A stretch of 64,000 nt of DNA from assembly GCA_025094145.1 (NCBI GenBank), contig JALLLS010000006.1, positions 496,001-560,000 of the forward strand, written 5' to 3'. Source of the stretch: Spinellus fusiger (lineage: Eukaryota > Mucoromycota > Mucoromycetes > Mucorales > Phycomycetaceae). Positions 16,520 to 64,000 of the stretch are shown in pieces (positions within the stretch are counted from its first letter, which is position 1; the number at the start of each line of letters is the position of its first letter). The notes under the pieces are model-generated. The model did not search any database. It saw only the letters and a program-made list of their open reading frames with translations, and was not told the DNA's origin. A program made the position numbers and the translations under genes.

Positions 16520-17040
16520 TCTCTCTCCCCTAAAGCCTAATGTCAGTTACTGCCTACAGAAGAACAATGCTAGGCCTCCCACGAGCAGGGCAACTCGAGA
16601 ATAAAAGGCAGCGAATGGCATAGTAATGACTCTTTACTGGTCCTCACAATACCAATCTCGATCGAACTGAGCATCTGTGGGCCCACCTCAAGAATATCAT
16701 TAGGAAGGACAGGAGTTTATGTTTTATTAAAAAGAAGTTGAAGGCGGCCCTGATGCTTGAATAAGGTAAAATATCTAAAGAAGTGACAGACAACCTCATT
16801 GTCAGCATGAGGCGGAGATACTAGGCTGTCATTGATGCCAAAGGAGGCTATACGAAATATTAACTGTATTATTATTATTTCATTTTCTATAATTAAAGAT
16901 ATTAAGCTTTGGTAGGATTAATTTTGAAGCTTATAGATCAAATTTAGAGTGCTTTATTTAATGTTGAACATGGCCTATCTATTTTGTCCTGATATTTATT
17001 TTCACAAGTATTCAACTCAGTTGAGTGTGGCTGTATTCAC
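16520..17040 (+). pseudogene. C-terminal relic of Tc1-like transposase
   Basis: Plus-strand translation gives fragments related to a Tc1 C-terminus: a block comparable to LQEDNASCHT, then TEHLWAHLKNIIRKD, and finally AVIDAKGGYTKY. The terminal part GTATTCAACTCAGTTGAGTG resembles the end of the element at 1868. Its last 40 bp are also found at the outer edge of the inverted copy B (about 36900-36940). Confidence 0.7.
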
Positions 17041-18349
17041 ACTTTCTTGAACAAGTAGGTTCATCCTAATTATATACCCAATAACATTATTTGAGTGAAC
17101 TATCTTCAAAATAGATAGATAAGATGTTGTGGATAGGGTCATTCGCACAAAAGTCATTGTAACTGTCTAAATAATAATAATAAAAACAGAAAAAAAACAA
17201 AGTCATTGTGATAAGACCAAGAAATGACAGCTTACTACAAAGAATTAGTTCTACGAATCAGTCATACAATCCTATGAGCTACGTACTTCTTTTTCCTACA
17301 GAACAGTTAGGTTTAGAATATAAATACATGTTCAGTCAATAACCAAAATGTCAAGATAAGCACACTAAAATACTACTGCTTCAGATTGATGTACAGAAAA
17401 AATAAATCACTTGCATTTATTTGGAAAGCTCTTTTATCAGTATAGAGTATATACTAACATTGAACAAGGTCGTCTGAATTCTATACATCATAACCAAAAC
17501 ATACTGAGAAGAGATGTCCTATTATAAGATTGAGAATAAAAACAAAAATAAAAACAGTAAAGAACATTAAAGAACAGTAAAGAACAGTAAAGAACAATAG
17601 GAATAAGCATCATTATACACTATAAGGACGATAGATACTCTTTGGAAACAAACACTAACTCTTCTATACTAATGTTTGGTATTGAATAATAGATAAATCT
17701 ATGCTTTAAAATCCAAATTCCATTAGAACCACTGTTTAATATTTTCACTTTTATTATAATACTGTTCATGACAGTCTTGATAAAATTGTAGTATTATTTA
17801 TCTTGGACAATAAGTAGAAATAAAGTATTATTGCAAATAAGGAAGTATTCTGTCCCTGGAAGTCTATTAAGGGAGGATCATTGTCCGTGCATTTTTGAAG
17901 AGAATACTGTTGAATAATCAGTCCTAATAAGTTATGCCTCAGAAGAAGATATATATAAGTAGTCTTCATATTTATAGAATGAATTCTTTAAGAAATATAA
18001 CTTTTACCTACTTAACACACCTCTTGTTTATTGGGTTTTTGAACAGTATTATGTACAAACTATTTTATTTCCTATGATTGGACTTTTTCATTTACTCTTT
18101 ATGTTTTACTATAATATTATCTTTAATAATTCTATGGCTAAAAATATCAATCCTTATATATCTGTTTATATAAGAATGAATAATACATTATCTGATACTC
18201 TATAGATCCACTTTGTACATATTTCAAGACATACTATGGAGTTTGAACAGATCATTTTGCTCGGAGTATGAATACCAAGAAAGATAGTTAACGGTCACAA
18301 CACCGTATTCAAAGGAACAGCCTATTCCATAGCTACTCACTGTAGTAAA

Positions 18350-18392
18350 GCGGTTCTAGTGGAGTGGTTAACATAGTGCTTTACCAAAGCAT
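18350..18392 (+). other. tRNA 5'-half-like sequence
   Basis: The sequence has a perfect RNA polymerase III A-box (TAGTGGAGTGG), a D-loop-like GGTTAACAT, and a hairpin GTGCT-TTACCAA-AGCAT of anticodon-arm size. No T-arm or B-box follows, so it is not a full tRNA gene. It recurs in copies B (about 35547-35590) and C (about 56841-56884), just upstream of the 270-residue ORF. It may be a relic or chance. Confidence 0.4.
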
Positions 18393-18445
18393 AAAAAGAA
18401 AAAACACTTATACCTACTGTGAGAAAATATTCTAGTAGTCAGTCC

Positions 18446-19258
18446 ATGACTAGTCATGTTCCTTCATCAGAATTATCCCAGGTGGGTAGTTGGGGAAAGA
18501 TACCATGGGAAGACGAAACAGATACTTCTCAGCCCATCTCCAATAATCCAACACCCCTCAAAGTAGTCCAGGTGGGTAGCTGGGGAAAGATACCATGGGA
18601 AGAGAACCCACCCACGACACAACCACCAAAAAAGATGCCGTTGCTTGTTGAGAAGTCTCAGAATACTCCAGTAGAGACAGTAGCGCAGAGGCACACATCA
18701 GCTGTCAAACAACCCCTATCTGGAATACCACAGTCTATGGATAATAGCCAGAAGGAGAGTCAACAGGCTTTGGCTTTGGAAGAAGAAATACTTCTTAGTC
18801 AACTGTTGGAGACTACAACACTCAGTGATCATCAGGACAATAATAACAGCAACGGCCCCACCCTTATTGAACAACCAGTGACAGAAGCAATACTGTCTTT
18901 CACCATAGCTAAGAGTGAAGAAAGGAAGGACAGCCAAGAAATAAACACAACTTCTTGTCAATGCTCCACAGTAGAATCCAATGGCCCTGACACTATCCAA
19001 ACCTCATCCATACAGGCTGCACCTGAACCGCCACAGAGTGAAGAATTACAGAATGAGATGCCACAAATTGAAAAACTACATATCAAAAGGCTACAGATTG
19101 AAAAACCACAGATTGAAAAACCACAGATCGAAAGGCCTGTGCGTCGAATAACAACAAGTAATGCCGCAAAACGAATGATATTTGGTGCTCTTGGTCTTAA
19201 AGCACCCTCTTTTAAGAATGAAGAAAAGAGAAATTCACCACAGTTTAAAAATACATAG
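18446..19258 (+). CDS. Unknown 270-residue repeat-unit protein (copy A)
   Basis: A single open exon. I chose the ATG at 18446; the frame extends nine codons upstream to a GTG but has no ATG there. The protein is hydrophilic and low in hydrophobic core residues, with no signal peptide or membrane segment. Near the N-terminus the motif VGSWGKIPWE occurs twice, about 30 residues apart. A Gln/Ser/Thr-rich middle follows, then QIEKP repeats, then a basic C-terminal tail with AKRMIFGALGLKAP. I do not recognise the family. Against copy C I count four amino-acid changes and six silent ones, and no indel; against copy B the protein is identical. That pattern suggests it may still be under selection, unlike the kinesin part beside it. 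Confidence 0.55.
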   Translation: MTSHVPSSELSQVGSWGKIPWEDETDTSQPISNNPTPLKVVQVGSWGKIPWEENPPTTQPPKKMPLLVEKSQNTPVETVAQRHTSAVKQPLSGIPQSMDNSQKESQQALALEEEILLSQLLETTTLSDHQDNNNSNGPTLIEQPVTEAILSFTIAKSEERKDSQEINTTSCQCSTVESNGPDTIQTSSIQAAPEPPQSEELQNEMPQIEKLHIKRLQIEKPQIEKPQIERPVRRITTSNAAKRMIFGALGLKAPSFKNEEKRNSPQFKNT

Positions 19259-20690
19259 CACAACAATTGAATGGGTTTGTATGTCTTTTGTAATGATCAA
19301 TGGCTTCCTATACATTTACAGAGGGCCCTTTTCTTTTATTCTCCGTACAGATGGAAATGTCGGTTACATAGGTATCAAATGGACATATCTTGTTATCTGA
19401 ATTATAGGATAATAATAGTAAGCTAGATGTGTTTATTCATACACTTCCTCTCTATGGTTACATCCACTTTGGATAGAGAACCTGTATAAAGTGTTAGTGT
19501 TTCTTTTTTATTTTTATTATTTTTATTATTAGGTCTTATAAGGTAGCTAAGATGTACAGTGTATGTGGAACCTATATTCAGATAAACACTGTGCAAATCA
19601 ATAGAAAAGAGGTGATGACTTTGAGATAAATAGTGTTATGAAGAAGAACAGTGTATAATAAAACCAACATTCTAATGGAATAGCAGAGGCAAATAAATAT
19701 GTAGGACTAAAAGATGGCACATATAAAGTATTTTTCAACTACTTGTGTTATTAGAAATATCTAGACTTTTAGTTTCATGCATGGACTCTCTATCTGTTTA
19801 TAAACACAGTTTAATTGGTTAGATACCAGTAAGAATCTATTCCTAATGACTATAATAAATAGTATCTTTATTAAGAAAGACGAGAAACCAACAGTTGGTC
19901 TTTTTTATTTTTATTGTTTATTTTTAAGAATGGCCATACAATGATGAGTCTGGGATGAGGCATATAGGATAAGCTGTGGCGTATTTGAATGCAGTGGATA
20001 GGTCTTTTTAGATTATGAAAGTACAACAGCCTGCATTAGAGTTTGCTCTATTTAGTAATAATTTACGCCAAATTACTCTATTTGTAATAATTGTTAGATT
20101 AGAATAAAAGTATAAAAGTATGACATACAGGTTGAATAAGAAAGAACAGAGTGAATCGTACGTTAACTCAACAAAATACCTTTGAAGCCAAGAAGCCATC
20201 AACGACACTATCATATCAATAGTTGAATAGTAGCTGATACTTATTCAATACTACTAAAGACTCTTTTTTATTGTATTTCTATGTATTTTCTATAAACTAA
20301 ATATCATCTATTTAGCAAGATACTACTAGAACCAAGAAAAATAAGCCTATTGGTTTATCCTTCCTTCTCCCCATGTATCGCTGGAGCCTTTGGTTTACTG
20401 GCTGATAGACGACCATAGTACAAACAAACTATCTAGAAAGTGACAAGATGTGTTTTATTTGATTTTTGTTATTATATAAAAGCAGAAGTATAAATCAGTT
20501 TAATAAATATACATTGTCTAACTGCTTTTCATCTAACAAAGATACCTTTGGACAGAAACCACACGGACGGCATACACACCAGTAGAGTGTCCAATCAAAT
20601 TTACAGTCAAGCCAATTACACGTGAAACTAATGCTCATACATTTAAAACATCGGCGAGTTATAGACATGCAAATCTTACTTCTTTTCATC
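19259..20690. other. Noncoding core conserved among copies A, B and C
   Basis: Between the 270-residue ORF and the kinesin-like gene, copies A and C differ over about 1.35 kb (19321-20667) by two substitutions and one 4-nt length change, by my reading. That is fewer than in the neighbouring coding sequence. No long ORF is present. The Cys-rich mini-ORF at 20495-20689 is listed separately. Confidence 0.6.
20495..20689 (-). CDS. Cys-rich 64-residue mini-ORF (copy A)
   Basis: The ORF encodes 64 residues with nine cysteines between positions 7 and 46, including CFKC and CVCRPCGFC, spacing that could bind zinc. Its ATG lies 65 bp from the start of the divergent kinesin-like gene. It is identical in copy B (33248-33442) and has one change, Met to Ile at position 8, in copy C. 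It may be a real small gene, a captured zinc-binding piece of a larger gene, or a chance ORF in a well-kept noncoding block. Confidence 0.3.
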   Translation of the reverse strand: MKRSKICMSITRRCFKCMSISFTCNWLDCKFDWTLYWCVCRPCGFCPKVSLLDEKQLDNVYLLN

Positions 20691-20754
20691 CTTTTTTTTT
20701 TACAAAAATAATCTTACTTCTTTTCATTCTTACATATCACTCACACCTATCCAA

Positions 20755-23700
20755 ATGCCTCCAGTAACAGCCAAAGACTGTAAGAAAAGAAGTGTTTTGG
20801 ATGTAAAATCATCCAAAATAACCAAGAGACCCGTGTCTCTATCTTCTCCCTCCATGGCAGTCAAAAGTACGCGTGTCTCACTGTTGAGAAAGGAACGTAC
20901 AGCAGTTATTTCCAGCCAAAGAACAGACGGCAGACCACCTGCACTCTCAGGAATCTCCCCTTCACAAACCATTAAGAAGCCTTCTGGTCAACCATGTCGT
21001 TCTGGTACAAGCACCACCAGACTTCCAGTGGCTACTCCTCTTGCACTAAAAACACCCTGTATCCAGCCTCGCAGACAAAAACCTGTAGTGTCGCGTTCCA
21101 CTCGGCCTGAGCAACCAGATACCACCACCAGCAACATTGTGGCTGCTGGAATAAAGAGAAAGTCAGTCGAGTTGCTGAATACAACTGCAAAGAAAAGAGT
21201 TGTTCTTGGTACAACACGACCAGCTGTCGCCACCCGACCTCCTGTTACTACCCCCTCTTTATTAAGAGCACCTCGAATCCAGCCACGCAAACAAAACCCA
21301 GCTATGTTACGCTCTTCTAAGCCTAAACAACCAAACACCACCACCACCACCACCACCACCCGACCCCCTATGCCCACTCCTCCCTCATCATCAAAAACAC
21401 CCCGCATCCAACCAACCACCACCACCCGACCCCCTATTGCCACTCCTTCTTCATTAAGAGCACCCCACATCCAACCACGTAAGCAAACTCCAATCATGCC
21501 ACGCTCTTCTAAGCCTGAGCAACCAGCTACCACAATCAGTGACACTGTAGCTGCTAGAACAAAAAATATTTCATCCAAGTCACTGGATACTAATGTGAAA
21601 AAGAGATGTATTCTTGATAAAAAGGTAAGTAAATATAGAATAGAAGTACCTTCAATTGTACAATCTAACCCATTCCACATGGAAAAAGTTGAATCGTCAT
21701 CAAGAACACATTGAAGCAGGTAATACAAAGAGTACATATGAATAATACACTATCTGTCAACTCACTCTATTATTCCTGAAGTTTCTGAACTATCTGAGTT
21801 TAAGGCAAACCTAGAAAGCGATATACCAAAAAAGGACCTGCAGACACCAGAAGTTGCAGAAAGAGTGAATGATTTGTAGAGAGAAGAGCAGGTAGATACA
21901 TACACATACAACACTCTACATGACCCTAATTATACCTTTATTAGGAAGAAGTAAGAAAGGACGAGGAGAACATAAAATCATCTGAATTGTAAAAAGAAAC
22001 AGAAAGCAGAGCTCATGAGAAGGATCTAATGTACTTGAAGGAGAATGAGGAGAGTTTAAAAGGATAAAGGAGTAACTGAAATCTAACACTATACCACTGA
22101 ACATAAAAGCCTAAAGGTAGGATTTACCATTCCATATACTTACTCCACATGAACTCATTAACTGATAATGACTATAGAAATGACTAGAGAAATCCCACAC
22201 TAATCATCATACAACACAAGGGGAATTTGAACTTCTAAATGTAAAGGCAAGTCAATTCATTCTTCTGCAGAGAAACTAATGACCCTTTGTTTAAGGTAAT
22301 GAACAAACAGTCTGCCTATCCATAACACATTATCGAAACTGTGGTGAATGAAATAAAAGAAGAAAAGAAGAAAAGAAGAAATAAGCAGAATCAGAGTCCA
22401 ATGTCTTTGCTGAAGAAGATTTGCAAGAATACAAGGGAAATATTGGTGTCTTCTGTCGTGTACACCCAGCTATGGATAAGAAGAAGAAAAAGGAAACTGA
22501 AGTATATCATGTCATGTCACTAAGCAAATTGTTTAGAGTCTGAAAAGCCAAACCCTAACTTAATCACAGACATGGAGTTCTGTGGTAAAGACAATGACAC
22601 AATCTAAATCACTCAGAAATCAAAGCGTATACTTGGTCGTGTGTCTAGCAGGAAACACAGATTCTTTTTAACCAGGTATTTCCTCATAAAAACATACAGA
22701 AAGAATGCTATGAAGAAGGCTTCCATCTTGTTCAGCCAGCTCCAGAGGGGCACACTATTTGTATTTTTGCGTAAGTTATCTTGATTATTATCATTAATAA
22801 TAGTTTATTAATGTTTGATTTTGTTTGTATTTATACTAGATACGGCCATACAGGAAGTGAAAAAGTAAGAAAGAATGAAAGAGAGGTTAAACATAGGTGG
22901 ACTAACCCATAATACTTTTAGACATACACTATAGAAGAAAGCACCAGGTGAAGACAGAGGAGTCATCCCATGAGCTGTTCATCAACTCTATGATGTAGTT
23001 CAGAAGGTGAAAGAAAATAATTGGCACTACAAAATGGTGAGGCAACTTCATGAAATATACAACGATTCCATTCGTGACCTATTGGGTGATAATTATAAAC
23101 ATGGAAAAACAAACCATGAAATCAGACATGAAAAATATTGATAAACCGAGGTTACTGGCATAACAAGTGGTAAGTCCTTCATTCACACTGTCACTTGGCT
23201 AATAATCATTCTTTTTATCATTCTTTTAGACTCCCTAGCACATGTGCATACTATGCTTAAGAAGACCAGCCACAACAGAGCAATAGCAGCTACAAGCATT
23301 AACGAACGCTCTTCCCACAGCCACAGTGGCTTTATCTTGAGAATACAGGGAAGGAATTCCGCTACAGGAGAAACAACAGAGGGGTTATTGAATTTGGTAG
23401 ATTTGGCAGGATCTGAAAGGCTAAACATGTCAGGATCAACTAGAGATGGATTACGAGAAACACAGTCAGTCAGCAAAAGGCTGAGCTGTCCTAGAGATGT
23501 CATTGCAAGTCTTGATATAACAAAAACAAAGATATGCACGCTCCATATAGAAGCTCAAAGTTTACATACCTTCTCAAATACTCATTAGGTAAGGACTATT
23601 CTATAGACAAACATTATTTCTAATCTCTATTAATTTAGGTGAACATAGTAAAACATTTGTGTTTCTGGATGTTTCCTCACTGGCAGATTATTTCAACGAG

Positions 23701-23800
23701 GCTTTATGCTCTCTTAGATTTGCTAAAAAAAAAAAAGAAAGAAAGAAAGGTGAATCATTGTAAAGTGGATGAAGCACAAGAATACCCACCCAGAAAGTGA
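20755..23800 (+). pseudogene. Kinesin-14-like gene, decaying (copy A)
   Basis: The architecture is that of a C-terminal-motor kinesin (kinesin-14, Kar3/Ncd type). First comes a basic Pro/Thr-rich tail (20755-21624) with three to four imperfect units of about 45 residues (RPPxxTPSSLRAPRIQPRKQ). A Lys/Glu-rich, stop-ridden coiled-coil zone follows. The motor starts near 22425 (EYKGNIGVFCRVHP), and YGHTGSEK (22841 on) stands where the P-loop GQTGSGKT should be. NERSSHSHSGF (23298 on) replaces NERSSRSHS in switch I. LNLVDLAGSERL and a final LCSLRFA near 23720 are kept. Introns with GTAAG/TAG borders are retained. Stops occur in the coil (for example TAG at 21877, which is GAG in copy C) and in the motor, and the P-loop Gly-to-Glu change should abolish ATP binding. 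The family is clear; only the tail exon could still make a protein. Confidence 0.85.
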
Positions 23801-24057
23801 TCTGCCCAACAACTCCCAAACATGACCTTGAGGCATTGAAGGTATTGTCTAAACTCATCACCAGAATCAGTAGCCAAGTCGCTATACAGTCATAAAATTA
23901 GTAAGTTACGATATATTTTTGAAGTCTTGAGAAAGAACATTAGTTATGTATAAAAAGGCTGAGACCTCAAATCACACATTAACAATCCCAAATCAAACAT
24001 AAAGTTAGTTTAAAATATAGTCTATATTATTATACATAAAAAAGGGTTTTATTTAAT

Positions 24058-24416
24058 GTTTTGTTGGGCCACCTTTGGTATCAATAACTGCCTGGCAGCG
24101 ATCCTTTATTAAGCCCACCAAATATTTGGCAATAGCGATGTGGATATCTCCCCCAAGCTTCTTCTAAGGCTGTCTTGAGCTCATCAATATTTTTGATACC
24201 GGCCTTCTTGTCATTGATAAGCTTATCAAGACAGCTCCAGAGATGTTCAATAAGTTCCAAATTTATGTAGTTATAGGAGGCAAATGGGTTGCCTCTTAGA
24301 ATGGCCTCAGGTTGTCTGAGGTCTCTCTTATTGATTTTTTGTGTACCAGAACGAGGCTTTGGTACAGGTTTAACAGTGGTCATTCTAATGCCAATGATTT
24401 TTGAAATGCTATCCAT
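24058..24416 (-). pseudogene. Internally deleted Tc1 transposase (copy A)
   Basis: A short frame joins a transposase N-terminus (IIGIRMTTVKPVPKPRSGT and RDLRQPEAILRGNPF) directly to a C-terminal block (LELIEHLWSCLDKLI). Both catalytic aspartates are missing, so this is a deletion derivative. The same junction occurs in copy C at 62526-62890, so the deletion happened before the unit was duplicated. No inverted repeats were found. Confidence 0.75.
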
Positions 24417-24419
24417 AGA

Positions 24420-25391
24420 GTATTTCTCTTTTCTTTTAATTCAGTAAACACCCCAGTACTCTCTTTCTTCAAGCCTATTATAGACTCTATAGTTTTTAGT
24501 TGAGGATTCTGATATTGACATTTGAGATTGATGAATGCAACGTGAATATGTGGTAAGAAAAATCATGTTTAAAATTGTATAAATTCGTATACTTACTAAT
24601 GCGGTATGTCTGTATAACAATAGCCCAGAATTTTAAGTATTACTTTTTGAGGTTCACTTTGTGAAAATAACTAAAAAAACCAATATAAATATGTCAATAG
24701 GCAACCATTATATAAATTCATATGAGAAATCTATTTAAAAAAAATACATTTTTAGATGCAGTTAAGCCATTATTTATTTAAAGCTGCATTGAATCCAAGA
24801 GCTGATATAGTTCATAGTCCCTTTGAAATAGATAAAAACATCACGTCAAACACTCTCAACTGATGCATCAGTAATATTTCTACAATTTTACATAAAATAA
24901 TTGCCAAATCATATTAATTATTCAATTATAAATATAATTTACTGAAACTAATAATCAAGCATTGGATTAAATGACTACATGAGAATGATGATAGAGTGGG
25001 CCATATTGTCTTTTATTAATGCAGACTATTCTTTCGCCGACTCTTGATTGCTGTCTAATACACATTGTTGATAATAACAACTACTGGTATTTTATGAGGG
25101 ATTGTGAATATTCCAACTATGATGGAGGTTCCTTCCAAAATCAATATTAATTAGTATCTTTTTATCTTTTTAAACTAAACAACTTTCTCTCTTTATATTC
25201 TTGCTCTTATTATTTCTTACTCTTGGGCTTAATAAATTATATCAATGGACTCTTTTTTACAGTATGTACGGTTCAAGATGACGGATTTCAGAAATTAATT
25301 AGCAGATTTAAGAAATTAAAACAGCAGTATTAAGATATAATTAAAGGCAGTGGTTGATCTAAGAGGCATGTAGAACTCGAGAGAGATTGAC
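24420..25391. other. AT-rich segment of copy A
   Basis: I see no gene. The stretch is matched closely at 62895-63858 in copy C. Its right end, about 25290-25391, resembles the reverse complement of 28984-29070, so it may be leader sequence of the retroelement whose LTR follows. Confidence 0.5.
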
Positions 25392-25823
25392 TATCAACAC
25401 AAAGACCACACACAAAAGAGGAAATTGGGGGATGTTCTTAACGGAGTAGTCTTTCTGAATTAGCAGAAAGAGTGATAACGGAGACGAAAGAGTGTTCACC
25501 AACAATAGTGACAGAGACCAAAAGAGGGTATGTAACCTACAGTGTTACAGGGACGGATAAAGAGATAGTGATAAAATAGAGAAGGGGTGAAAGAATAGGA
25601 AACACTGTTCGTTTCGATATTTAGAGCGAGCTTAGCCTCTACAATACGATTCAAAGGATACCAAGGAAAATTCAATGTTTATTAGAGAGGTCTATCCTAA
25701 GGTATATATACATAATATCGTCAGTGGAATGCTAGTTCTATGTGTCTAGTTATTTCGATATATATTAATCAACGTCTCAGTAACTTCCGAGCCAACAGAT
25801 AGTTACTCCTGCCTATCATTACA
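25392..25823 (-). mobile_element. LTR-like repeat R2, copy 1
   Basis: Read on the minus strand it starts TGTAATGATAGGCAGG, contains a TATATATACC box and AATAAACATTG, and ends near TGTTGATA. It matches 28554-28983 and 32382-32817 (both plus) and the window end. The roughly 430-bp length and the order of TATA box and polyadenylation-type signal fit an LTR. No gag-pol region adjoins it. Confidence 0.75.
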
Positions 25824-32381: not shown

Positions 32382-32817
32382 TGTAGTGATAGGCAGAAAT
32401 GTCTATCTGTTAGCTCGGAAGGTGATGAGACGTTGACAAGTTCGAAATGAAATAACTAGATGCATAGGGCTAGCATTCCACTGTAAATTCTGTGTATATA
32501 AACCATAGGATAGACCTCTCTAATAAACAATTATCCTTCTTTGTATTTTCTGAATCGTATTGTAAAGGCTAATCTCGCTCTAAATATTGAAAAGGACAGT
32601 ACTTTCTATTCTTTTTTTATTTATATTTTCATTATTATCACTATATCCTTTCCGTTCCCTATAACCCCATAGGTTACATACTTTTTTTGGTCTTCTGTCA
32701 CTATTGTTAGTGAACACTCTTTCATCTCTGGTATCAATTTTTCTGAATTAGCAGAAAGACTACTCTGTTAAGTACATCCCCTATTTCTCTCTTTTTTGTG
32801 AGATATTTGTGTTGGTA
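32382..32817 (+). mobile_element. LTR-like repeat R2, copy 3
   Basis: It starts TGTAGTGATAGGCAG and runs to GTGTTGGTA, where it passes directly into the kinesin-tail fragment of copy B. The sharp junction falls in a short shared sequence (TTGGTATC), so copy B looks like a deletion product of a longer unit. Confidence 0.75.
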
Positions 32818-32821
32818 TCTG

Positions 32822-33182
32822 GTTGCTCAGGCCGAGTAGAACGCGATACTATAGGTTTTTGTCTGCGAGGCTGGATACAGGGTGTTTTTAGTGCAAGAGG
32901 AGTAGCCACTGGAAGTCTGGTGGTGCTTGTACCAGAACGACGTGGTTGACCAGAAGGCTTCTTAATGGTTTGTGAAGGGGAGATTCCTGAGAGTGCAGGT
33001 GGTCTGCCGTCTGTTCTTTGGCTGGAAATAACTGCTGTACGTTCCTTTCTCAACAGTGAGACACGCGTACTTTTGACTGCCATGGAGGGAGAAGATAGAG
33101 ACACGGGTCTCTTGGTTATTTTGGATGATTTTACATCCAAAACACTTCTTTTCTTACAGTCTTTGGCTGTTACTGGAGGCAT
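32822..33182 (-). pseudogene. Kinesin-like tail fragment (copy B)
   Basis: Encodes the first 120 or so residues of the basic Pro/Thr-rich tail seen in copies A and C, starting at ATG 33182. It then runs into R2 sequence and stops. No motor part remains. Confidence 0.8.
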
Positions 33183-33247
33183 TTGGATAGGTGTGAGTGA
33201 TATGTAAGAATGAAAAGAAGTAAGATTATTTTTGTAAAAAAAAAAGG

Positions 33248-33442
33248 ATGAAAAGAAGTAAGATTTGCATGTCTATAACTCGCCGATGTTTTAAATGTAT
33301 GAGCATTAGTTTCACGTGTAATTGGCTTGACTGTAAATTTGATTGGACACTCTACTGGTGTGTATGCCGTCCGTGTGGTTTCTGTCCAAAGGTATCTTTG
33401 TTAGATGAAAAGCAGTTAGACAATGTATATTTATTAAACTGA
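33248..33442 (+). CDS. Cys-rich 64-residue mini-ORF (copy B)
   Basis: Identical in protein sequence to 20495-20689. The same caution applies: the nine-cysteine pattern and preservation are notable, but expression is unknown. Confidence 0.3.
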   Translation: MKRSKICMSITRRCFKCMSISFTCNWLDCKFDWTLYWCVCRPCGFCPKVSLLDEKQLDNVYLLN

Positions 33443-34678
33443 TTTATACTTCTGCTTTTATATAATAACAAAAATCAAATAAAACACATCTTGTCACTTT
33501 CTAGATAGTTTGTTTGTACTATGGTCGTCTATCAGCCAGTAAACCAAAGGCTCCAGCGATACATGGGGAGAAGGAAGGATAAACCAATAGGCTTATTTTT
33601 CTTGGTTCTAGTAGTATCTTGCTAAATAGATGATATTTAGTTTATAGAAAATACATAGAAATACAATAAAAAAGAGTCTTTAGTAGTATTGAATAAGTAT
33701 CAGCTACTATTCAACTATTGATATGATAGTGTCGTTGATGGCTTCTTGGCTTCAAAGGTATTTTGTTGAGTTAACGTACGATTCACTCTGTTCTTTCTTA
33801 TTCAACCTGTATGTCATACTTTTATACTTTTATTCTAATCTAACAATTATTACAAATAGAGTAATTTGGCGTAAATTATTACTAAATAGAGCAAACTCTA
33901 ATGCAGGCTGTTGTACTTTCATAATCTAAAAAGACCTATCCACTGCATTCAAATACGCCACAGCTTATCCTATATGCCTCATCCCAGACTCATCATTGTA
34001 TGGCCATTCTTAAAAATAAACAATAAAAATAAAAAAGACCAACTGTTGGTTTCTCGTCTTTCTTAATAAAGATACTATTTATTATAGTCATTAGGAATAG
34101 ATTCTTACTGGTATCTAACCAATTAAACTGTGTTTATAAACAGATAGAGAGTCCATGCATGAAACTAAAAGTCTAGATATTTCTAATAACACAAGTAGTT
34201 GAAAAATACTTTATATGTGCCATCTTTTAGTCCTACATATTTATTTGCCTCTGCTATTCCATTAGAATGTTGGTTTTATTATACACTGTTCTTCTTCATA
34301 ACACTATTTATCTCAAAGTCATCACCTCTTTTCTATTGATTTGCACAGTGTTTATCTGAATATAGGTTCCACATACACTGTACATCTTAGCTACCTTATA
34401 AGACCTAATAATAAAAATAATAAAAATAAAAAAGAAACACTAACACTTTATACAGGTTCTCTATCCAAAGTGGATGTAACCATAGAGAGGAAGTGTATGA
34501 ATAAACACATCTAGCTTACTATTATTATCCTATAATTCAGATAACAAGATATGTCCATTTGATACCTATGTAACCGACATTTCCATCTGTACGGAGAATA
34601 AAAGAAAAGGGCCCTCTGTAAATGTATAGGAAGCCATTGATCATTACAAAAGACATACAAACCCATTCAATTGTTGTG

Positions 34679-35491
34679 CTATGTATTTTTAAACTGTGGT
34701 GAATTTCTCTTTTCTTCATTCTTAAAAGAGGGTGCTTTAAGACCAAGAGCACCAAATATCATTCGTTTTGCGGCATTACTTGTTGTTATTCGACGCACAG
34801 GCCTTTCGATCTGTGGTTTTTCAATCTGTGGTTTTTCAATCTGTAGCCTTTTGATATGTAGTTTTTCAATTTGTGGCATCTCATTCTGTAATTCTTCACT
34901 CTGTGGCGGTTCAGGTGCAGCCTGTATGGATGAGGTTTGGATAGTGTCAGGGCCATTGGATTCTACTGTGGAGCATTGACAAGAAGTTGTGTTTATTTCT
35001 TGGCTGTCCTTCCTTTCTTCACTCTTAGCTATGGTGAAAGACAGTATTGCTTCTGTCACTGGTTGTTCAATAAGGGTGGGGCCGTTGCTGTTATTATTGT
35101 CCTGATGATCACTGAGTGTTGTAGTCTCCAACAGTTGACTAAGAAGTATTTCTTCTTCCAAAGCCAAAGCCTGTTGACTCTCCTTCTGGCTATTATCCAT
35201 AGACTGTGGTATTCCAGATAGGGGTTGTTTGACAGCTGATGTGTGCCTCTGCGCTACTGTCTCTACTGGAGTATTCTGAGACTTCTCAACAAGCAACGGC
35301 ATCTTTTTTGGTGGTTGTGTCGTGGGTGGGTTCTCTTCCCATGGTATCTTTCCCCAGCTACCCACCTGGACTACTTTGAGGGGTGTTGGATTATTGGAGA
35401 TGGGCTGAGAAGTATCTGTTTCGTCTTCCCATGGTATCTTTCCCCAACTACCCACCTGGGATAATTCTGATGAAGGAACATGACTAGTCAT
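34679..35491 (-). CDS. Unknown 270-residue repeat-unit protein (copy B)
   Basis: Translation is identical to the copy A protein (18446-19258), with the same ATG choice. It has the doubled VGSWGKIPWE motif, the QIEKP repeats and the basic C-terminal tail. Because B has lost the kinesin motor region but keeps this ORF intact, the ORF does not depend on that neighbour. Confidence 0.55.
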   Translation of the reverse strand: MTSHVPSSELSQVGSWGKIPWEDETDTSQPISNNPTPLKVVQVGSWGKIPWEENPPTTQPPKKMPLLVEKSQNTPVETVAQRHTSAVKQPLSGIPQSMDNSQKESQQALALEEEILLSQLLETTTLSDHQDNNNSNGPTLIEQPVTEAILSFTIAKSEERKDSQEINTTSCQCSTVESNGPDTIQTSSIQAAPEPPQSEELQNEMPQIEKLHIKRLQIEKPQIEKPQIERPVRRITTSNAAKRMIFGALGLKAPSFKNEEKRNSPQFKNT

Positions 35492-36940
35492 GGACTGACT
35501 ACTAGAATATTTTCTCACAGTAGGTATAAGTGTTTTTTCTTTTTATGCTTTGGTAAAGCACTATGTTAACCACTCCACTAGAACCGCTTTACTACAGTGA
35601 GTAGCTATGGAATAGGCTGTTCCTTTGAATACGGTGTTGTGACCGTTAACTATCTTTCTTGGTATTCATACTCCGAGCAAAATGATCTGTTCAAACTCCA
35701 TAGTATGTCTTGAAATATGTACAAAGTGGATCTATAGAGTATCAGATAATGTATTATTCATTCTTATATAAACAGATATATAAGGATTGATATTTTTAGC
35801 CATAGAATTATTAAAGATAATATTATAGTAAAACATAAAGAGTAAATGAAAAAGTCCAATCATAGGAAATAAAATAGTTTGTACATAATACTGTTCAAAA
35901 ACCCAATAAACAAGAGGTGTGTTAAGTAGGTAAAAGTTATATTTCTTAAAGAATTCATTCTATAAATATGAAGACTACTTATATATATCTTCTTCTGAGG
36001 CATAACTTATTAGGACTGATTATTCAACAGTATTCTCTTCAAAAATGCACGGACAATGATCCTCCCTTAATAGACTTCCAGGGACAGAATACTTCCTTAT
36101 TTGCAATAATACTTTATTTCTACTTATTGTCCAAGATAAATAATACTACAATTTTATCAAGACTGTCATGAACAGTATTATAATAAAAGTGAAAATATTA
36201 AACAGTGGTTCTAATGGAATTTGGATTTTAAAGCATAGATTTATCTATTATTCAATACCAAACATTAGTATAGAAGAGTTAGTGTTTGTTTCCAAAGAGT
36301 ATCTATCGTCCTTATAGTGTATAATGATGCTTATTCCTATTGTTCTTTACTGTTCTTTACTGTTCTTTAATGTTCTTTAATGTTTTTATTTTTGTTTTTA
36401 TTCTCAATCTTATAATAGGACATCTCTTCTCAGTATGTTTTGGTTATGATGTATAGAATTCAGACGACCTTGTTCAATGTTAGTATATACTCTATACTGA
36501 TAAAAGAGCTTTCCAAATAAATGCAAGTGATTTATTTTTTCTGTACATCAATCTGAAGCAGTAGTATTTTAGTGTGCTTATCTTGACATTTTGGTTATTG
36601 ACTGAACATGTATTTATATTCTAAACCTAACTGTTCTGTAGGAAAAAGAAGTACGTAGCTCATAGGATTGTATGACTGATTCGTAGAACTAATTCTTTGT
36701 AGTAAGCTGTCATTTCTTGGTCTTATCACAATGACTTTGTTTTTTTTCTGTTTTTATTATTATTATTTAGACAGTTACAATGACTTTTGTGCGAATGACC
36801 CTATCCACAACATCTTATCTATCTATTTTGAAGATAGTTCACTCAAATAATGTTATTGGGTATATAATTAGGATGAACCTACTTGTTCAAGAAAGTGTGA
36901 ATACAGCCACACTCAACTGAGTTGAATACTTGTGAAAATA

Positions 36941-36985
36941 ATAATTATAATAATAAAAATAATAATAATAATATGAGTAATAATA
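36941..36985 (+). repeat. AAT-rich microsatellite
   Basis: Imperfect AAT/ATA repeats mark the outer edge of arm B, where similarity to arm A ends. Confidence 0.7.
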
Positions 36986-44399: not shown

Positions 44400-44575
44400 A
44401 TATTATCAGTCATAATATCAGTCATAATATCAGTCATAACATCAGTAATAACATCAGTAATAATATCAGTCATAACATCAGTCATAAAATCAGTCATAAT
44501 ATCAGTCATAATATCAGTCATAATATCAGTAATAACATCAGTCATAATATCAGTAATAACATCAGTTATAGCACT
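44400..44575 (+). repeat. Minisatellite, ATCAGTCATAAT-type
   Basis: About fourteen imperfect 12-bp units of the type ATCAGTCATAAT or ATCAGTAATAAC. Because 12 is a multiple of three, several frames stay open through it on both strands, giving meaningless repeated ISVITSV or IMTD translations. The flanks up to 45063 show no gene. Confidence 0.92.
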
Positions 44576-56720: not shown

Positions 56721-56937
56721 CTGTACTACGGAGTTTGAACAGATCATTTTGCTCGGAGTATGAATACCAAGAAAGATAGTTAACGGTCACAACACCGTAT
56801 TCAAAGGAACAGCCTATTCCATAGCTACTCACTGTAGTAAAGCGGTTCTAGTGGAGTGGTTAACGTAGTGCTTTACCAAAGCATAAAAAGAAAAAACACT
56901 TATACCTACTGTGAGAAAATATTCTAGTAGTCAGTCC

Positions 56938-57750
56938 ATGACTAGTCATGTTCCTTCATCAGAATTATCCCAGGTGGGTAGTTGGGGAAAGATACCATGG
57001 GAAGACGAAACAGATACTTCTCAGCCCATCTCCAATAATCCAACACCCCTCAAAGTAGTCCAGGTGGGTAGCTGGGGAAAGATACCATGGGAAGAGAACC
57101 CACCCACGACACAACCACCAAAGAAGATGCCGTTGCTTGTTGAGAAGTCTCAGAATACTCCAGTAGAGACAGTAGCACAGAGGCACACATCAGCTGTCAA
57201 ACAACCCCTATCTGGGATACCACAGTCTATGGATAATAGCCAGAAGGAGAGTCAACAAGCTTTGGCTTTGGAAGAAGAAATGCTTCTTAGTCAACTGTTG
57301 GAGACTACAACACTCAGTGATCATCAGGACAATAATAACAGCAACGGCCCCACCCTTATTGAACAACCAGTGACAGAAGCAATACTGTCTTTCACCATAG
57401 CTAAGAGTGAAGAAAGGAAGGACAGCCAAGAAATAAACACAACTTCTTGTCAATGCTCCACAGTAGAATCCAATGGCCCTGACACTATCCAAACCTCATC
57501 CATACAGGCTACACCTGAACCGCCACAGAGTGAAGAACTACAGAATGAGATGCCACAAATTGAAAAACTACATATCAAAAGGCTACAGAATGAAAAACCA
57601 CAGATTGAAAAACCACAGATCGAAAGGCCTGTGCGTCGAATAACAACAAGTAATGCCGCAAAACGAATGATCTTTGGTGCTCTTGGTCTTAAAGCACCCT
57701 CTTTTAAGAATGAAGAAAAGAGAAATCCACCACAGTTTAAAAATACATAG
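56938..57750 (+). CDS. Unknown 270-residue repeat-unit protein (copy C)
   Basis: Same length as copies A and B, with four amino-acid changes (Ile to Met, Ala to Thr, Ile to Asn, Ser to Pro) and six silent changes against copy A. All motifs are kept: the doubled VGSWGKIPWE, the QIEKP repeats and AKRMIFGALGLKAP. No stop or indel. Confidence 0.55.
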   Translation: MTSHVPSSELSQVGSWGKIPWEDETDTSQPISNNPTPLKVVQVGSWGKIPWEENPPTTQPPKKMPLLVEKSQNTPVETVAQRHTSAVKQPLSGIPQSMDNSQKESQQALALEEEMLLSQLLETTTLSDHQDNNNSNGPTLIEQPVTEAILSFTIAKSEERKDSQEINTTSCQCSTVESNGPDTIQTSSIQATPEPPQSEELQNEMPQIEKLHIKRLQNEKPQIEKPQIERPVRRITTSNAAKRMIFGALGLKAPSFKNEEKRNPPQFKNT

Positions 57751-58988
57751 CACAACAATTGAATGGATTTTTGTCTTTTTTGATGATCAATGGCTTCCTA
57801 TACATTTACAGAGGGCCCTTTTCTTTTATTCTCCGTACAGATGGAAATGTCGGTTACATAGGTATCAAATGGACATATCTTGTTATCTGAATTATAGGAT
57901 AATAATAGTAAGCTAGATGTGTTTATTCATACACTTCCTCTCTATGGTTACATCCACTTTGGATAGAGAACCTGTATAAAGTGTTAGTGTTTCTTTTTTA
58001 TTTTTATTATTTTTATTATTAGGTCTTATAAGGTAGCTAAGATGTACAGTGTATGTGGAACCTATATTCAGATAAACACTGTGCAAATCAATAGAAAAGA
58101 GGTGATGACTTTGAGATAAATAGTGTTATGAAGAAGAACAGTGTATAATAAAACCAACATTCTAATGGAATAGCAGAGGCAAATAAATATGTAGGACTAA
58201 AAGATGGCACATATAAAGTATTTTTCAACTACTTGTGTTATTAGAAATATCTAGACTTTTAGTTTCATGCATGGACTCTCTATCTGTTTATAAACACAGT
58301 TTAATTGGTTAGATACCAGTAAGAATCTATTCCTAATGACTATAATAAATAGTATCTTTATTAAGAAAGACGAGAAACCAACAGTTGGTCTTTTTTATTT
58401 TTATTGTTTATTTTTAAGAATGGCCATACAATGATGAGTCTGGGATGAGGCATATAGGATAAGCTGTGGCGTATTTGAATGCAGTGGATAGGTCTTTTTA
58501 GATTATGAAAGTACAACAGCCTGCATTAGAGTTTGCTCTATTTAGTAATAATTTACGCCAAATTACTCTATTTGTAATAATTGTTAGATTAGAATAAAAG
58601 TATAAAAGTATGACATACAGGTTGAATAAGAAAGAACAGAGTGAATCGTACGTTAACTCAACAAAATACCTTTGAAGCCAAGAAGCCATCAACGACACTA
58701 TCATATCAATAGTTGAATAGTAGCTGATACTTATTCAATACTACTAAAGACTCTTTCTTTTTTATTGTATTTCTATGTATTTTCTATAAACTAAATATCA
58801 TCTATTTAGCAAGATACTACTAGAACCAAGAAAAATAAGCCTATTGGTTTATCCTTCCTTCTCCCCATGTATCGCTGGAGCCTTTGGTTTACTGGCTGAT
58901 AGACGACCATAGTACAAACAAACTATCTAGAAAGTGACAAGATGTGTTTTATTTGATTTTTATTATTATATAAAAGCAGAAGTATAAA

Positions 58989-59183
58989 TCAGTTTAATAA
59001 ATATACATTGTCTAACTGCTTTTCATCTAACAAAGATACCTTTGGACAGAAACCACACGGACGGCATACACACCAGTAGAGTGTCCAATCAAATTTACAG
59101 TCAAGCCAATTACACGTGAAACTAATGCTCATACATTTAAAACATCGGCGAGTTATAGATATGCAAATCTTACTTCTTTTCAT
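58989..59183 (-). CDS. Cys-rich 64-residue mini-ORF (copy C)
   Basis: Differs from the A and B copies by one residue (Met to Ile at position 8). All nine cysteines are kept. The frame is also open for about 20 codons upstream of the shared Met. Confidence 0.3.
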   Translation of the reverse strand: MKRSKICISITRRCFKCMSISFTCNWLDCKFDWTLYWCVCRPCGFCPKVSLLDEKQLDNVYLLN

Positions 59184-59246
59184 CCTTTTTTTTACAAAAA
59201 TAATCTTACTTCTTTTCATCTTTATACACAACTCACTCCAATCCAA

Positions 59247-62200
59247 ATGCCTCCAGTGACAGCTAAAGGCAGCAAGAAAAAAAGTGTTTTGGATGATTTT
59301 ACATCCAAAATAACCAAGAGACCCGTGTCTCTATCTTCTCCCTCCATGGCAGTCAAAAGTACGCGTGCCTCACTGTTGAGAAAGGAACGTACAGCAGTTA
59401 TTTCCAGCCAAAGAACAGACGGCAGACCACCTGCACTGTCAGGAATCTCCCCTTCACAAACCATTAAGAAGCCTTCTGGTCAACCACGTCGTTCTGGTAC
59501 AAGCACCACCAGACTTCCAGTGGCTACTCCTCTCGCACTAAAAACACCCTGTATCCAGCCTCGCAGACAAAAACCTGTAGTGTCGCGTTCTACTCGGCCT
59601 GAGCAACCAGATACCACCACCAGCAACATTGTGGCTGCTGGAATAAAGAGAAAGTCAGTCGAGTTGCTGAATACAACTGCAAAGAAAAGAGTTGTTCTTG
59701 GTACAACACGACCAGCTGTCGCCACCCGACCTCCTGTTACTACCCCCTCTTCATTAAGAGCACCTCGAATCCAGCCACGCAAACAAAACCCAGCTATGTT
59801 ACGCTCTTCTAAGCCTAAACAACCAAACACCACCACCACCACCACCCGACCCCCTATGCCCACTCCTCCCTCATCATCAAAAACACCCCGCATCCAACCA
59901 ACCACCACCACCCGACCCCCTATTGCCACTCCTTCTTCATTAAGAGCACCCCGCATCCAACCACGTAAGCAAACTCCAATCATGCCACGCTCTTCTAAGC
60001 CTGAGCAACCAGCTACCACAATCAGTGACACTGTAGCTGCTAGAACAAAAAATATTTCATCCAAGTCACTGGATACTAATTTGAAAAAGAGATGTATTCT
60101 TGATAAAAAGGTAAGTAAATATAGAATAGAAGTACCTTCAATTGTACAATCTAACCCATTCCACATGGAAAAAGTTGAATCGTCATCAAGAACACATTGA
60201 AGCAGGTAATACAAAGAGTACATATGAATAATACACTATCTGTCAACTCACTCTATTATTCCTGAAGTTTCTGAACTATCTGAGTTTAAGGCAAACCTAG
60301 AAAGCGATATACCAAAAAAGGACCTGCAGACACCAGAAGTTGCAGAAAGAGTGAATGATTTGGAGAGAGAAGAGCAGGTAGATACATACACATACAACAC
60401 TCTACATGACCCTAATTATACCTTTATTAGGAAGAAGTAAGAAAGGACGAGGAGAACATAAAATCATCTGAATTGTAAAAAGAAACAGAAAGCAGAGCTC
60501 ATGAGAAGGATCTAATGTACTTGAAGGAGAATGAGGAGAGTTTAAAAGGATAAAGGAGTAACTGAAATCTAACACTATACCACTGAACATAAAAGCCTAA
60601 AGGTAGGATTTACCATTCCATATACTTACTCCACATGAACTCATTAACTGATAATGACTATAGAAATGACTAGAGAAATCCCACACTAATCATCATACAA
60701 CACAAGGGGAATTTGAACTTCTAAATGTAAAGGCAAGTCAATTCATTCTTCTGCAGAGAAACTAATGACCCTTTGTTTAAGGTAATGAACAAACAGTCTG
60801 CCTATCCATAACACATTATCAAAACTGTGGTGAATGAAATAAAAGAAGAAAAGAAGAAAAGAAGAAATAAGCAGAATCAGAGTCCAATGTCTTTGCTGAA
60901 GAAGATTTGCAAGAATACAAGGGAAATATTGGTGTCTTCTGTCGTGTACACCCAGCTATGGATAAGAAGAAGAAAAAGGAAACTGAAGTATATCATGTCA
61001 TGTCACTAAGCAAATTGTTTGGAGTCTGAAAAGCCAAACCCTAACTTAATCACAGACATGGAGTTCTGTGGTAAAGACAATGACACAATCTAAATCACTC
61101 AGAAACCAAAGCGTATACCTGGTCGTGTGTCTAGCAGGAAACACAGATTCTCTCTTGACCAGGTATTTCCTCATAAAAACATACAGAAAGAATGCTATGA
61201 AGAAGGCTTCCATCTTGTTCAGCCAGCTCCAGAGGGGCACACTATTTGTATTTTTGCGTAAGTTATCTTGATTATTATCATTAATAATAGTTTATTAATG
61301 TTTAATTTTGTTTGTATTTATACTAGATACGGCCATACAGGAAGTGAAAAAGTAAGAAAGAATGAAAGAGAGGTTAAACATAGGTGGACTAACCCATAAT
61401 ACTTTTAGACATACACTATAGAAGGAAGCACCAGGTGAAGACAGAGGAGTCATCCCACGAGCTGTTCATCAACTCTATGATGTAGTTCAGAAGGTGAAAG
61501 AAAATAATTGGCACTACAAAATGGTGAGGCAATTTCATGAAATATACAACGATTCCATTCGTGACCTATTGGGTGATAATTATAAACATGGAAAAACAAA
61601 CCATGAAATCAGACATGAAAAATATTGATAAACCGAGGTTACTGGCATAACAAGTGGTAAGTCCTTCATTCACACTGTCACTTGGCTAATAATCATTCTT
61701 TTTATCATTTTTTTATACTCCCTAGCACATGTGCATACTATGCTTAAGAAGACCAGCCACAACAGAGCAATAGCAGCTACAAGCATTAACAAACGCTCTT
61801 CCCACAGCCACAGTGGCTTTATCTTGAGAATACAGGGAAGGAATTCTGCTACAGGAGAAACAACAGAGGGGTTATTGAATTTAGTAGATTTGGCAGGATC
61901 TGAAAGACTAAACATATCAGGATCAACTAGAGATGGATTACGAGAAACACAGTCAGTCAGCAAAAGGCTGAGCTGTCCTAGAGATGTCATTGCAAGTCTT
62001 GATATAACAAAAACAAAGATATACACGCTCCATATAGAAGCTCAAAGTTTACATACCTTCTCAAGTACTCATTAGGTAAGGACTATTCTATAGACAAACA
62101 TTATTTCTAATCTCTATTAATTTAGGTGAACATAGTAAAACACTTGTGTTTCTGGATGTTTCCCCACTGGCAGATTATTTCAACGAGGCTTTATGCTCTC

Positions 62201-62255
62201 TAAGATTTGCTATAAAAAAAAGGTGAATCATTGTAAAGTGAATGAAGCACGAGAA
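59247..62255 (+). pseudogene. Kinesin-14-like gene, less decayed (copy C)
   Basis: Same layout as copy A: a basic repeat-rich tail (from 59247), coiled-coil zone, and motor with CRVHPAM, SLDQVFPHKN, YGHTGSEK, INKRSSHSHSGF, LNLVDLAGSERL and a final LCSLRFA followed by KVNHCKV. Near 60362 it reads GAG where copy A has a stop, and the SLDQVF block is in frame where A is disrupted. Stops remain in the coiled-coil zone, the P-loop still has Glu in place of the invariant Gly, and switch I has two changes, so it is not a working motor. Tail differences from A include the microinversion at 59292-59305 and two fewer Thr codons in a Thr run. Confidence 0.85.
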
Positions 62256-62525
62256 TACCCACCCAGAAAGTGATCTACCCAACAACTCCCAAAAATTACC
62301 TTGAGGCATTGAAGGTATTGTCTAAACTCATCATCAGAATCAGTAGCCAAGTCGTTATACAGTCATAAAATTAGTAAGTTACGATATATTTTTGAAGTCT
62401 TGAGAAAGAACATTAGTTATGTATAAAAAGGCTGAAGCCTCAAATCACACATTAGCAACCCCAAATCAAACATAAAGTTAGTTTAAAATATAGTCTATAT
62501 TATTATACATAAAAAAAAAGTTTTT

Positions 62526-62890
62526 ATTTAATGTTTTGTTGGGCCACCTTTGGTATCAATAACTGCCTGGCAGCGATCCTTTATTGAGCCAACTAAACGT
62601 TCGATAAGATCAACGTGGATATCTCCCCAAGCTTCTTCTAAAGTTATCTTGAGCTCATCAATATTTTTGATACCGGCCCTCTTGTTATCGATAAGCTTAT
62701 CAAGATAGCTCCAGAGATGTTCAATAAGTTCCAAATTTATGTAGTTATAGGAGGCAAATGGGTTGCCTCTTAGAATGGCCTCAGGTTGTCTGAGGTCTCT
62801 CTTATTGATTTTCTGTGTACCAGAACGAGGCTTTGGTACAGGTTTAACAGTAGTCATTCTAATGCCAATGATTTTTGAAATGCTATCCAT
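62526..62890 (-). pseudogene. Internally deleted Tc1 transposase (copy C)
   Basis: Same fusion of N-terminal and C-terminal transposase parts as at 24058-24416, but ending in a regular C-terminus (RCQAVIDTKGGPTKH), whereas copy A is frameshifted near its end. Both catalytic aspartates are absent. Confidence 0.75.
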
Positions 62891-63858
62891 AGAGTATTTC
62901 TCTTTTCTTTTAATTCAGTAAACACCCCAGTACTCTCTTTCTTCAAGCCTATTATAGACTATATAGTTTTTAGTTGAGGATTCTGATATTGACATTTGAG
63001 ATTGATGAATGCAATGTGAATATGTGGTAAGAAAAATCATGTTTAAAATTGTATAAATTCGTATATTTACTAATGCGGTATGTCTGTATAACAATAGCCC
63101 AGAATTTTAAGTGATTACTTTTTGAGGTTCACTTTGTGAAAATAACTAGAAAAACCAATATAAATATGTCAATAGGCAACCATTATATAAATTCATATGA
63201 GAAATCTATTTTAAAAAATACATTTTTAGATGCAGTTAAGCCATTATTTATTTAAAGCTGAATTGAATCCAAGAGCTGACATAGTTCATAGTCCCTTTGA
63301 AATAGATAAAAACATCACGTCAAACACTCTCAACTGATGCATCAGTAATATTTCTACAATTTTACATAAAATAATTGCCAAATCAGATTAATTATTCAAT
63401 TATAAATATAATTTACTGAAACTAATAATCAAGCATTGGATTAAATGACTACATGAGAATGATGATAGAGTGGGCCATATTGTCTTTTATTAATGCAGAC
63501 GATTCTTTCGCCGATTCTTGATTGCTGTCTAATACACATTGTTGATAATAACAACTACTGGTATTTTATGAGGGATTGTGAATATTCCAACTATGATGGA
63601 GGTTCCTTCCAAAATCAATATTAATTAGTATCTTTTTAAACTAAACAACTTTCTCTCTTTATATTCTTGCTCTTATTATTTCCTACTCTTGGGCTTAATA
63701 AATTATATCAATGGACTCTTTTTTTACAGTATGTACGGTTCAAGATGACGGATTTCAGAAATTAATTAGCAGATTTAAGAAATTAAAACAGCAGCATTAA
63801 GATATAATTAAAGGCAGTGGTTGATCTAAGAGGCATGTAGAACTCGAGAGAGATTGAC

Positions 63859-64000
63859 TATCAACACAAAGACCACACACAAAAGAGGAAATTGGGGGAT
63901 GTTCTTAACGGAGTAGTCTTTCTGAATTAGCAGAAAGAGTGATAACGGAGACGAAAGAGTGTTCACCAACAATAGTGACAGAGACCAAAAGAGGGTATGT
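63859..64000 (-). mobile_element. LTR-like repeat R2, copy 4 (partial at window end)
   Basis: Matches the beginning of copy 1 (25392 onward) until the window ends, so the R2 repeat is part of the duplicated unit in copy C as well. Confidence 0.75.

Follow-up and report, generated by a model that had tools for sequence, protein, structure and literature searches.

A dispersed Kar3-bearing unit in the genome of Spinellus fusiger, probably a Helitron derivative

Three copies of a kinesin-bearing unit

A stretch of 64,000 nucleotides of the genome of Spinellus fusiger, a fungus of the Phycomycetaceae (Mucorales) (GenBank assembly GCA_025094145.1, contig JALLLS010000006.1, here contig C154, positions 496001-560000), referred to below as the window, was found to contain three copies of a unit in which an open reading frame (ORF), ORF1, lies upstream of a Kar3-like kinesin gene on the same strand. 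A preliminary description, made from the letters of the window alone, had reported three copies in both orientations, and alignments bore this out. Copy 1 (+) and copy 2 (-) form an inverted pair with 99.86% identity (16996-21128 / 36941-32809), and copy 1 and copy 3 (+) form a direct pair with 97.9% identity (18232-25533 / 56724-64000). The kinesin-14-like gene with introns, damage and a basic repeat-rich tail that had been ascribed to two copies is present in copies 1 and 3, both of which have motor exons (PF00225, E = 6.6e-22 for copy 1), and copy 2 retains the tail only. ORF1, to which no function had been assigned, is open in all three copies (18395-19258 and two relatives). The features of the copies are listed below, with the basis of each assignment in brackets.

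16816..17071 (right edge approximate), +, copy 1: 3' part of a Tc1/mariner-like element on the left side (shared with C32, C159 and one C141 copy, rearranged in C120)
17125..17515, +, copy 1: N-terminal remnant of the RepHel gene of a Helitron (similarity to genomic Helitrons, peptide)
18446..19258, +, copy 1: ORF1, 270 aa from the first ATG, open (open frame 18395-19258; ORF list)
20014..20260, +, copy 1: block whose relatives (~73%) immediately precede the 3' region in other members of the Helitron family (C119:286 kb, C154:275 kb)
20262..20490, +, copy 1: S', a decayed 3' end of a Helitron that adjoins the 5' flank of Kar3 (70-73% identity to intact 3' regions)
20755..21714, +, copy 1: Kar3 exon 1, the basic repeat-rich tail, open and continuing into intron 1 (comparison with the C159 gene)
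21750..23760 (approximate), +, copy 1: other exons of Kar3, for coiled coil and motor, disrupted by stop codons, frameshifts and loss of splice sites (C159 frame, PF00225)
23885..24635, -, copy 1: Tc1/mariner-like element with an internal deletion, situated in the 3' flank of Kar3 (inverted ends recognised by eye)
25338..25823, no strand given: solo long terminal repeat (LTR) near the unit and not part of it (40 places scored of 130 candidates; target duplications by eye)
32809..36961, -, copy 2: Helitron remnant, ORF1 (34679-35491) and a Kar3 tail that is truncated within exon 1, without motor (alignment to copy 1)
56724..64000, +, copy 3: ORF1 (56938-57750), tail exon beginning at 59247, disrupted motor exons up to ~62270, and LTR, extending beyond the window end (alignment to copy 1)

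The core of the unit that is common to copies elsewhere extends from ~16816/17125 to ~24583-24635 of the window. Similarity of copy 1 to the copies at C154:375 kb, C159 and C173 stops at or near the outer end of the Tc1/mariner-like element at 23885..24635, whereas copies 1 and 3 are similar, solo LTR included, up to ~26306. The right border had been placed at 25823, but this position is the end of the solo LTR outside the unit. The LTR was rejected as the end of the unit, its copies having 4-bp target duplications of their own (read by eye in 3 of 12 LTR copies).

Dispersed copies and the intact Kar3 gene

The whole genome (38.1 Mb, 197 contigs) was searched for further copies, and the counts of places for ORF1 and the Kar3 part are lower bounds. 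ORF1 DNA was found as 25 pieces at no fewer than 19 places on 13 contigs, and the Kar3 part as 29 pieces at no fewer than 16 places on 11 contigs. The proposal of a dispersed multi-copy unit that spread as DNA thus held genome-wide, and a restriction of the copies to this locus, which would have spoken against it, was excluded. At the 14 places with both parts, ORF1 was always upstream of Kar3 and on the same strand. ORF1 without a Kar3 match was found on C35, in one C169 copy, on C21 and in a C185 pair, and Kar3 without an ORF1 match on C131 and at C154:50 kb. The C35 copy and this C169 copy contain the RepHel remnant, ORF1 and the Helitron 3' region S (see below) and no Kar3. Inverted pairs were also found on C141 and C185, and the two copies on C169 are oppositely oriented. 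ORF1 was open over its C-terminal 90-95 residues in 10 of the 13 copies compared, and ORF1 of C35 and of C173 had two identical stops. The only match of the ORF1 protein at E <= 0.1 was the S. fusiger protein P0001, and Pfam gave only a weak low-complexity match. NG86 ratios for ORF1 were 0.4-1.4 and, with few changes and some ratios undefined, were uninformative about selection.

An intact relative with an open motor frame, as the preliminary description had asked for, was found on C159 (C159:187001-197000). This gene has 11 exons, 10 introns that are all GT-AG, and a product of 702 aa with a basic tail, a coiled coil and a C-terminal motor; the protein contains GNIRVFCRVRP, YGQTGSGKT, SSRSH and DLAGSE, the first two of which we take to be the neck and the P-loop, and the others standard motor motifs. 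A public model of 401 aa (P0002) corresponds to its C-terminal part. The best match in PDB was Kar3 (4gkr, E 2.1e-108), the closest solved structures being Kar3 motors, and judged from its sequence the kinesin of the unit is a Kar3-type kinesin-14. With Phycomyces Kar3 as the query, C159 scored best (289 bits), followed by the decayed copies, while other kinesins reached ~72 bits or less; no ordinary second Kar3 was found among the 67 of 84 candidates scored.

In a mixture-model tree of 19 Kar3 proteins, the C159 protein grouped with Phycomyces (support 93/96). A quick FastTree of 10 motors had placed it outside other Mucorales, as an ancient paralogue or a gene of foreign origin might be, but this was overruled and taken as a long-branch error because the careful 19-protein tree joins it to Phycomyces. 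Its end branch (C159:190535-193194, -) was by far the longest of the 19, 0.95 compared with a median of 0.23. The C159 motor had 71-72% identity to Phycomyces and 69% to Apophysomyces. In contrast, EF3 of the window (826-aa piece), the one control gene used, had 94% and 86% identity, respectively, indicating that the fast evolution of Kar3 is not general. At 193 motor sites that are invariant in nine other Kar3 proteins, C159 differed at 13, and several of these departures were identical to those in the dead copies. The C159 gene is the Kar3 of S. fusiger; as it has the same arrangement as the units, it is either the birthplace of the unit or a working copy.

Ten damaged copies, three of them over part of their length, were compared against the C159 frame, and motor-breaking lesions were found in all ten. 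Nine of them, all but C173, had stops at codons 310, 327, 389, 525 and 526, together with a one-base insertion causing a frameshift, a lost exon 6 donor and a lost exon 10 acceptor. Since these lesions are common to nine copies, their ancestor already had a dead motor before they spread. C173 shared two of the stops and a 24-base deletion, and its exon 6 donor was lost with other letters; from this pattern the motor was probably already damaged in the ancestor that includes C173. Of the amino-acid changes in the motor since the split, those that could be resolved numbered 4-6 for C159 and 48-58 for each of seven copies, with 22-27 left unresolved. Decay resembling repeat-induced point mutation was rejected, because six copies showed no clear excess of C-to-T/G-to-A changes over the reverse (117-145 vs 136-163 in five copies, 176 vs 172 in C173). 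CpG sites had changed about twice as often as other C sites.

Helitron parts and the origin of the unit

The RepHel remnant of copy 1 had 81% identity to a Helitron at C120:279 kb and 84% to another at C13:363 kb, and its peptide reads VIVIRPRN..QSYNPMSYVLLFP. In the C169 copy the remnant peptide had 74.5% identity (intron counted) to a Helitron at C143:120 kb. The unit itself keeps only this N-terminal remnant. Downstream of Kar3 in the copies on C120, C131, C160 and C159 lies a Helitron 3' region, S, ending in ...GACATTATAATGTCTAG with a T directly after it. When 14 S ends were aligned, nine were CTAG and the rest CTTG, TTAG (two), ATAG and CTAC, in agreement with the CTRR terminus of Helitrons, and the T directly followed 13 of the 14. 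The 29-base motif of the 3' end (up to 3 mismatches) occurred 126 times in the genome, and the reversed pattern was absent (0 occurrences). The 27 matches to Helitron_like_N represent 21 loci, and at no fewer than 8 of them S or the motif follows on the same strand, at most ~6 kb downstream; six of these eight were found by the motif, compared with ~0.2 expected from simple motif density. At C2:406505-411031, Helitron_like_N, PIF1 and S occur in this order on one strand within 4.5 kb, giving the RepHel arrangement in a fuller member of the family. Furthermore, a RepHel remnant is fused to S on C101, and a 73% relative of window positions 20014-20298 adjoins S on C119 and at C154:275 kb, so that RepHel remnant, block and S all seem to belong to one Helitron family.

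The 3' edge was located exactly in one closely related pair. The copies on C120 and C131 had 98.3% identity over 3.5 kb, and their alignment ended where the motif does, at its last base (C131:126089, C120:40031), with different DNA beyond (340 bases past the end for C131). The right Tc1-like relic breaks off at 24583 in C120, C131 and C160, where the 3' region of the Helitron is joined to it. On C169 the ordinary host gene HEM4 (PF02602, E 2.7e-12) begins ~70 bp beyond the S end. A second, decayed 3' end, S', sits between the ORF1 block and the Kar3 5' flank, exactly before the flank; it had 70-73% identity to intact 3' regions (E 5e-7 to 6.6e-14), and its last 30-46 bp were too decayed to align.

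Two side observations concern the 3' end. Fanzor/TnpB-like fragments were read by eye near the unit and at a Helitron 3' end (L039:85-495, -; L068 ~3700-4150, -). Opposite-oriented pairs of the 3' end motif spanned 4655-4656 bp (C68:380941-385596, C69:13675-18329, C152:153637-158291) or 5478-5480 bp (C19:67277-72754, C82:5416-10895); they face in on C68 and C69 and out on C152, C19 and C82, and may be either inverted double elements or contig ends that recur.

A Helitron is the most plausible carrier, a possibility that had not been part of the earlier interpretation. The unit is probably a non-autonomous Helitron derivative that captured a complete host Kar3 gene by overrunning its own 3' end. 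A Helitron with the RepHel remnant and ORF1 would have stood just upstream of Kar3, and when its 3' end, S', no longer stopped rolling-circle replication, the process would have run through Kar3 to the next Helitron 3' end, S, taking the gene with its introns. The captured Kar3 would then have lost its motor, and the unit would afterwards have been copied to many places by RepHel acting in trans from fuller Helitrons of the genome. The copies of the window are later local duplications, often inverted, which would have come last in this order. The succession of failed 3' end, gene and second 3' end matches the prediction of the end-bypass (3' end read-through) model of Helitron gene capture, as set out in the available part of PMC5148889. 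As in that model, a host gene is enclosed by a decayed 3' end and a second one, the copies are DNA copies with introns, RepHel relatives are present and the end is CTAG followed by T; different here are the capture of a whole 11-exon gene with its 5' flank and the two irregularities of the ends given below. C35 and the Kar3-free C169 copy look like the state before capture.

Several observations weigh against this history. The palindrome GACATTATAATGTC directly abuts CTAG at the 3' end, whereas the hairpin of Helitrons is expected 10-12 nt before it. No 5' end was located for the unit, whose left side is interrupted by inserted Tc1-like and LTR elements, and C131 and C169 have additional sequence in common before the RepHel remnant (76% over 217 bp); of the exact ends that the preliminary description had called for, the 3' edge at the Helitron motif of the C120/C131 pair was obtained and the 5' end was not. 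S was not seen in the copies of the window, C154:375 kb and C173, where similarity stops near the Tc1-like element. C35 may have lost Kar3 by recombination between S' and S rather than never having gained it, a course that also fits because C35 is closest to the Kar3-bearing C173 (90%) and has the same two ORF1 stops. C159 diverged from the copies by 3-5% in the Helitron part (11% for C173), 9-13% in Kar3 introns, 13-16% in exons 4-11 and 19-24% in exon 1. This mosaic was tentatively read as gene conversion plus repeat misalignment in exon 1, and the 3-5% of the Helitron part against 9-13% of the introns needs gene conversion or a second event. In addition, C159, C32 and C169 have in common a repeat of ~0.7-0.9 kb (87-89% identity), which follows the unit at a distance of 0.4-2.6 kb and is oriented alike relative to it at all three loci (L039:1-932, L042:8613-9651 and L068:1-821). 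It was taken as another, separate abundant repeat because HEM4 intervenes in C169, but it could mean a larger duplicated block; it slightly lowers the Helitron reading and slightly raises those of segmental duplication and of a MuDR-like carrier. Finally, S itself can be read as Fanzor from the T-S-x-x-C, C4 pattern, which the available part of PMC3627910 describes for Fanzor, and a weak Pfam match (TNB domain E 0.038 in L068; L039 without Pfam match).

Plain segmental duplication or ectopic recombination in transposon-rich regions would require no element to have moved, the edges being recombination points in nested repeats. The local, partly inverted window copies with flanks shared to 26306, the inverted pairs on C141 and C185, the opposite-oriented pair on C169, the mosaic divergence along the unit and the downstream repeat at three loci all fit it. 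However, the C120 and C131 copies break off at one identical base of a known transposon terminus and continue into different DNA, and the copies lie on 11 contigs, which makes this explanation unlikely. Still less can be said for a composite Tc1/mariner element in which the two inverted flanking Tc1-like relics moved everything between them, and we regard it as very unlikely. Relics do occur on both sides in opposite orientation, and near the outer end of the right one similarity stops in the window, at C154:375 kb and in C173, but C131 and the C169 copies showed no left relic, and in C120, C131 and C160, where the right relic is cut at 24583, the edge is the Helitron 3' region. Only slightly better placed, and still quite improbable, is the possibility that S is a Fanzor-bearing MuDR-like element, as in Rhizopus, Phycomyces and Mucor, and that such a transposase moved the unit. 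The available part of PMC3627910 reports Fanzor1 in MuDR-type elements of Mucorales; yet S or its end lies downstream of Helitron_like_N on the same strand at the eight or more of 21 loci given above and after PIF1 on C2, and the RepHel remnant is fused to S on C101, although no systematic search for terminal inverted repeats or 9-bp duplications was made. As to a giant transposon, for which no transposase had been recognised earlier, the DUF3435 captain domain of Starships (PF11917) had no match in the genome, but control genomes were equally without a match.

The window also contains features apart from the unit. A LINE-like (long interspersed nuclear element) retrotransposon at 49229-52859 (-), with reverse transcriptase (PF00078, E 5.4e-19) and broken into several frames, is flanked by a 540-base inverted repeat of 100% complementarity (48155-48694 / 54822-55361, 6.1 kb apart). 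A cytochrome P450 fragment (30697-31206, +; PF00067, E 5e-07) lies between copies 1 and 2, and a tandem array at 44400-44570 has 14 copies of a 12-base unit. Rfam and tRNA scans of the window gave no matches.

The tail exon, chromosome segregation and significance

Kindr and Trkin are kinesin-14 genes of maize involved in meiotic drive, and the preliminary description had considered a similar link to chromosome transmission. Both cases have duplicated kinesin-14 genes in a repeat-rich setting; in S. fusiger, however, the motors were dead before dispersal, the copies lie on 11 contigs and no drive phenotype is known. A selfish segregation driver built on kinesin-14 would fit the kinesin family, the many copies and the fast evolution of the sole intact Kar3 found, but it is scarcely credible given that all ten damaged copies compared have lesions, nine of them the same motor-killing ones, which leaves no working motor among them, and given an intact gene conserved since the split (4-6 changes vs 48-58). 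Meiotic drive is therefore not supported, what spread having already lost its motor, and no evidence ties the unit to segregation, although no search for centromere or knob repeats was made.

Exon 1 carries none of the lesions common to the nine copies and is still open in many of the copies, but it has frameshifts of its own in C141, C120 and C173. Parsimony over seven copies gave 86 silent, 148 replacement and 2 stop changes in exon 1 (expected shares ~30/67/3%), compared with 127, 292 and 20 in the dead exons, which fit the neutral shares. This signal of constraint on the tail is weak, at about two standard errors, and may reflect the time before the motor died. NG86 ratios for the tail, whose alignment is unsure because of tandem repeats, were 0.36-0.54 (window copy 1) and 0.49-0.59 (copy 3) against dispersed copies, 0.40-1.19 among other pairs and 0.61-0.76 against C159; those of the motor were 0.51-1.36 among copies. 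It is conceivable, though a long shot, that the dispersed units still act on the spindle, with the motor-less Kar3 tail and the ORF1 protein interfering with or redirecting the host Kar3 and the host gene evolving fast in response. The idea draws on an exon 1 without shared lesions, with slightly silent-rich and stop-poor changes, on the open C-terminus of ORF1 and on the long Kar3 branch as set against the conserved EF3.

A search of the literature found no paper treating Spinellus fusiger together with its genome, and, judged by titles, nothing on a Helitron-captured kinesin. HELPO1 Helitrons of Pleurotus ostreatus are likewise fungal Helitrons with extra genes besides RepHel, but the cargo here is a recognisable host Kar3, whereas according to the available text of PMC4289320 no intact HELPO1 element had evidence of P. 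ostreatus gene fragments. The Fanzor1-bearing Helitron2 of Chlamydomonas also has a Fanzor-like protein near a Helitron 3' end; the organism is another one, the end here is CTAG, and in Mucorales Fanzor1 was placed in MuDR-type elements, as far as the available part of PMC3627910 covers them.

The unit offers a well-marked natural example of a Helitron that apparently overran its end and carried a complete multi-exon host gene in an early-diverging fungus, and Kar3-free, intact and decayed forms coexist in one genome. It is also an oddity, as the only Kar3 found in S. fusiger sits inside a mobile arrangement and evolves much faster than its relatives.

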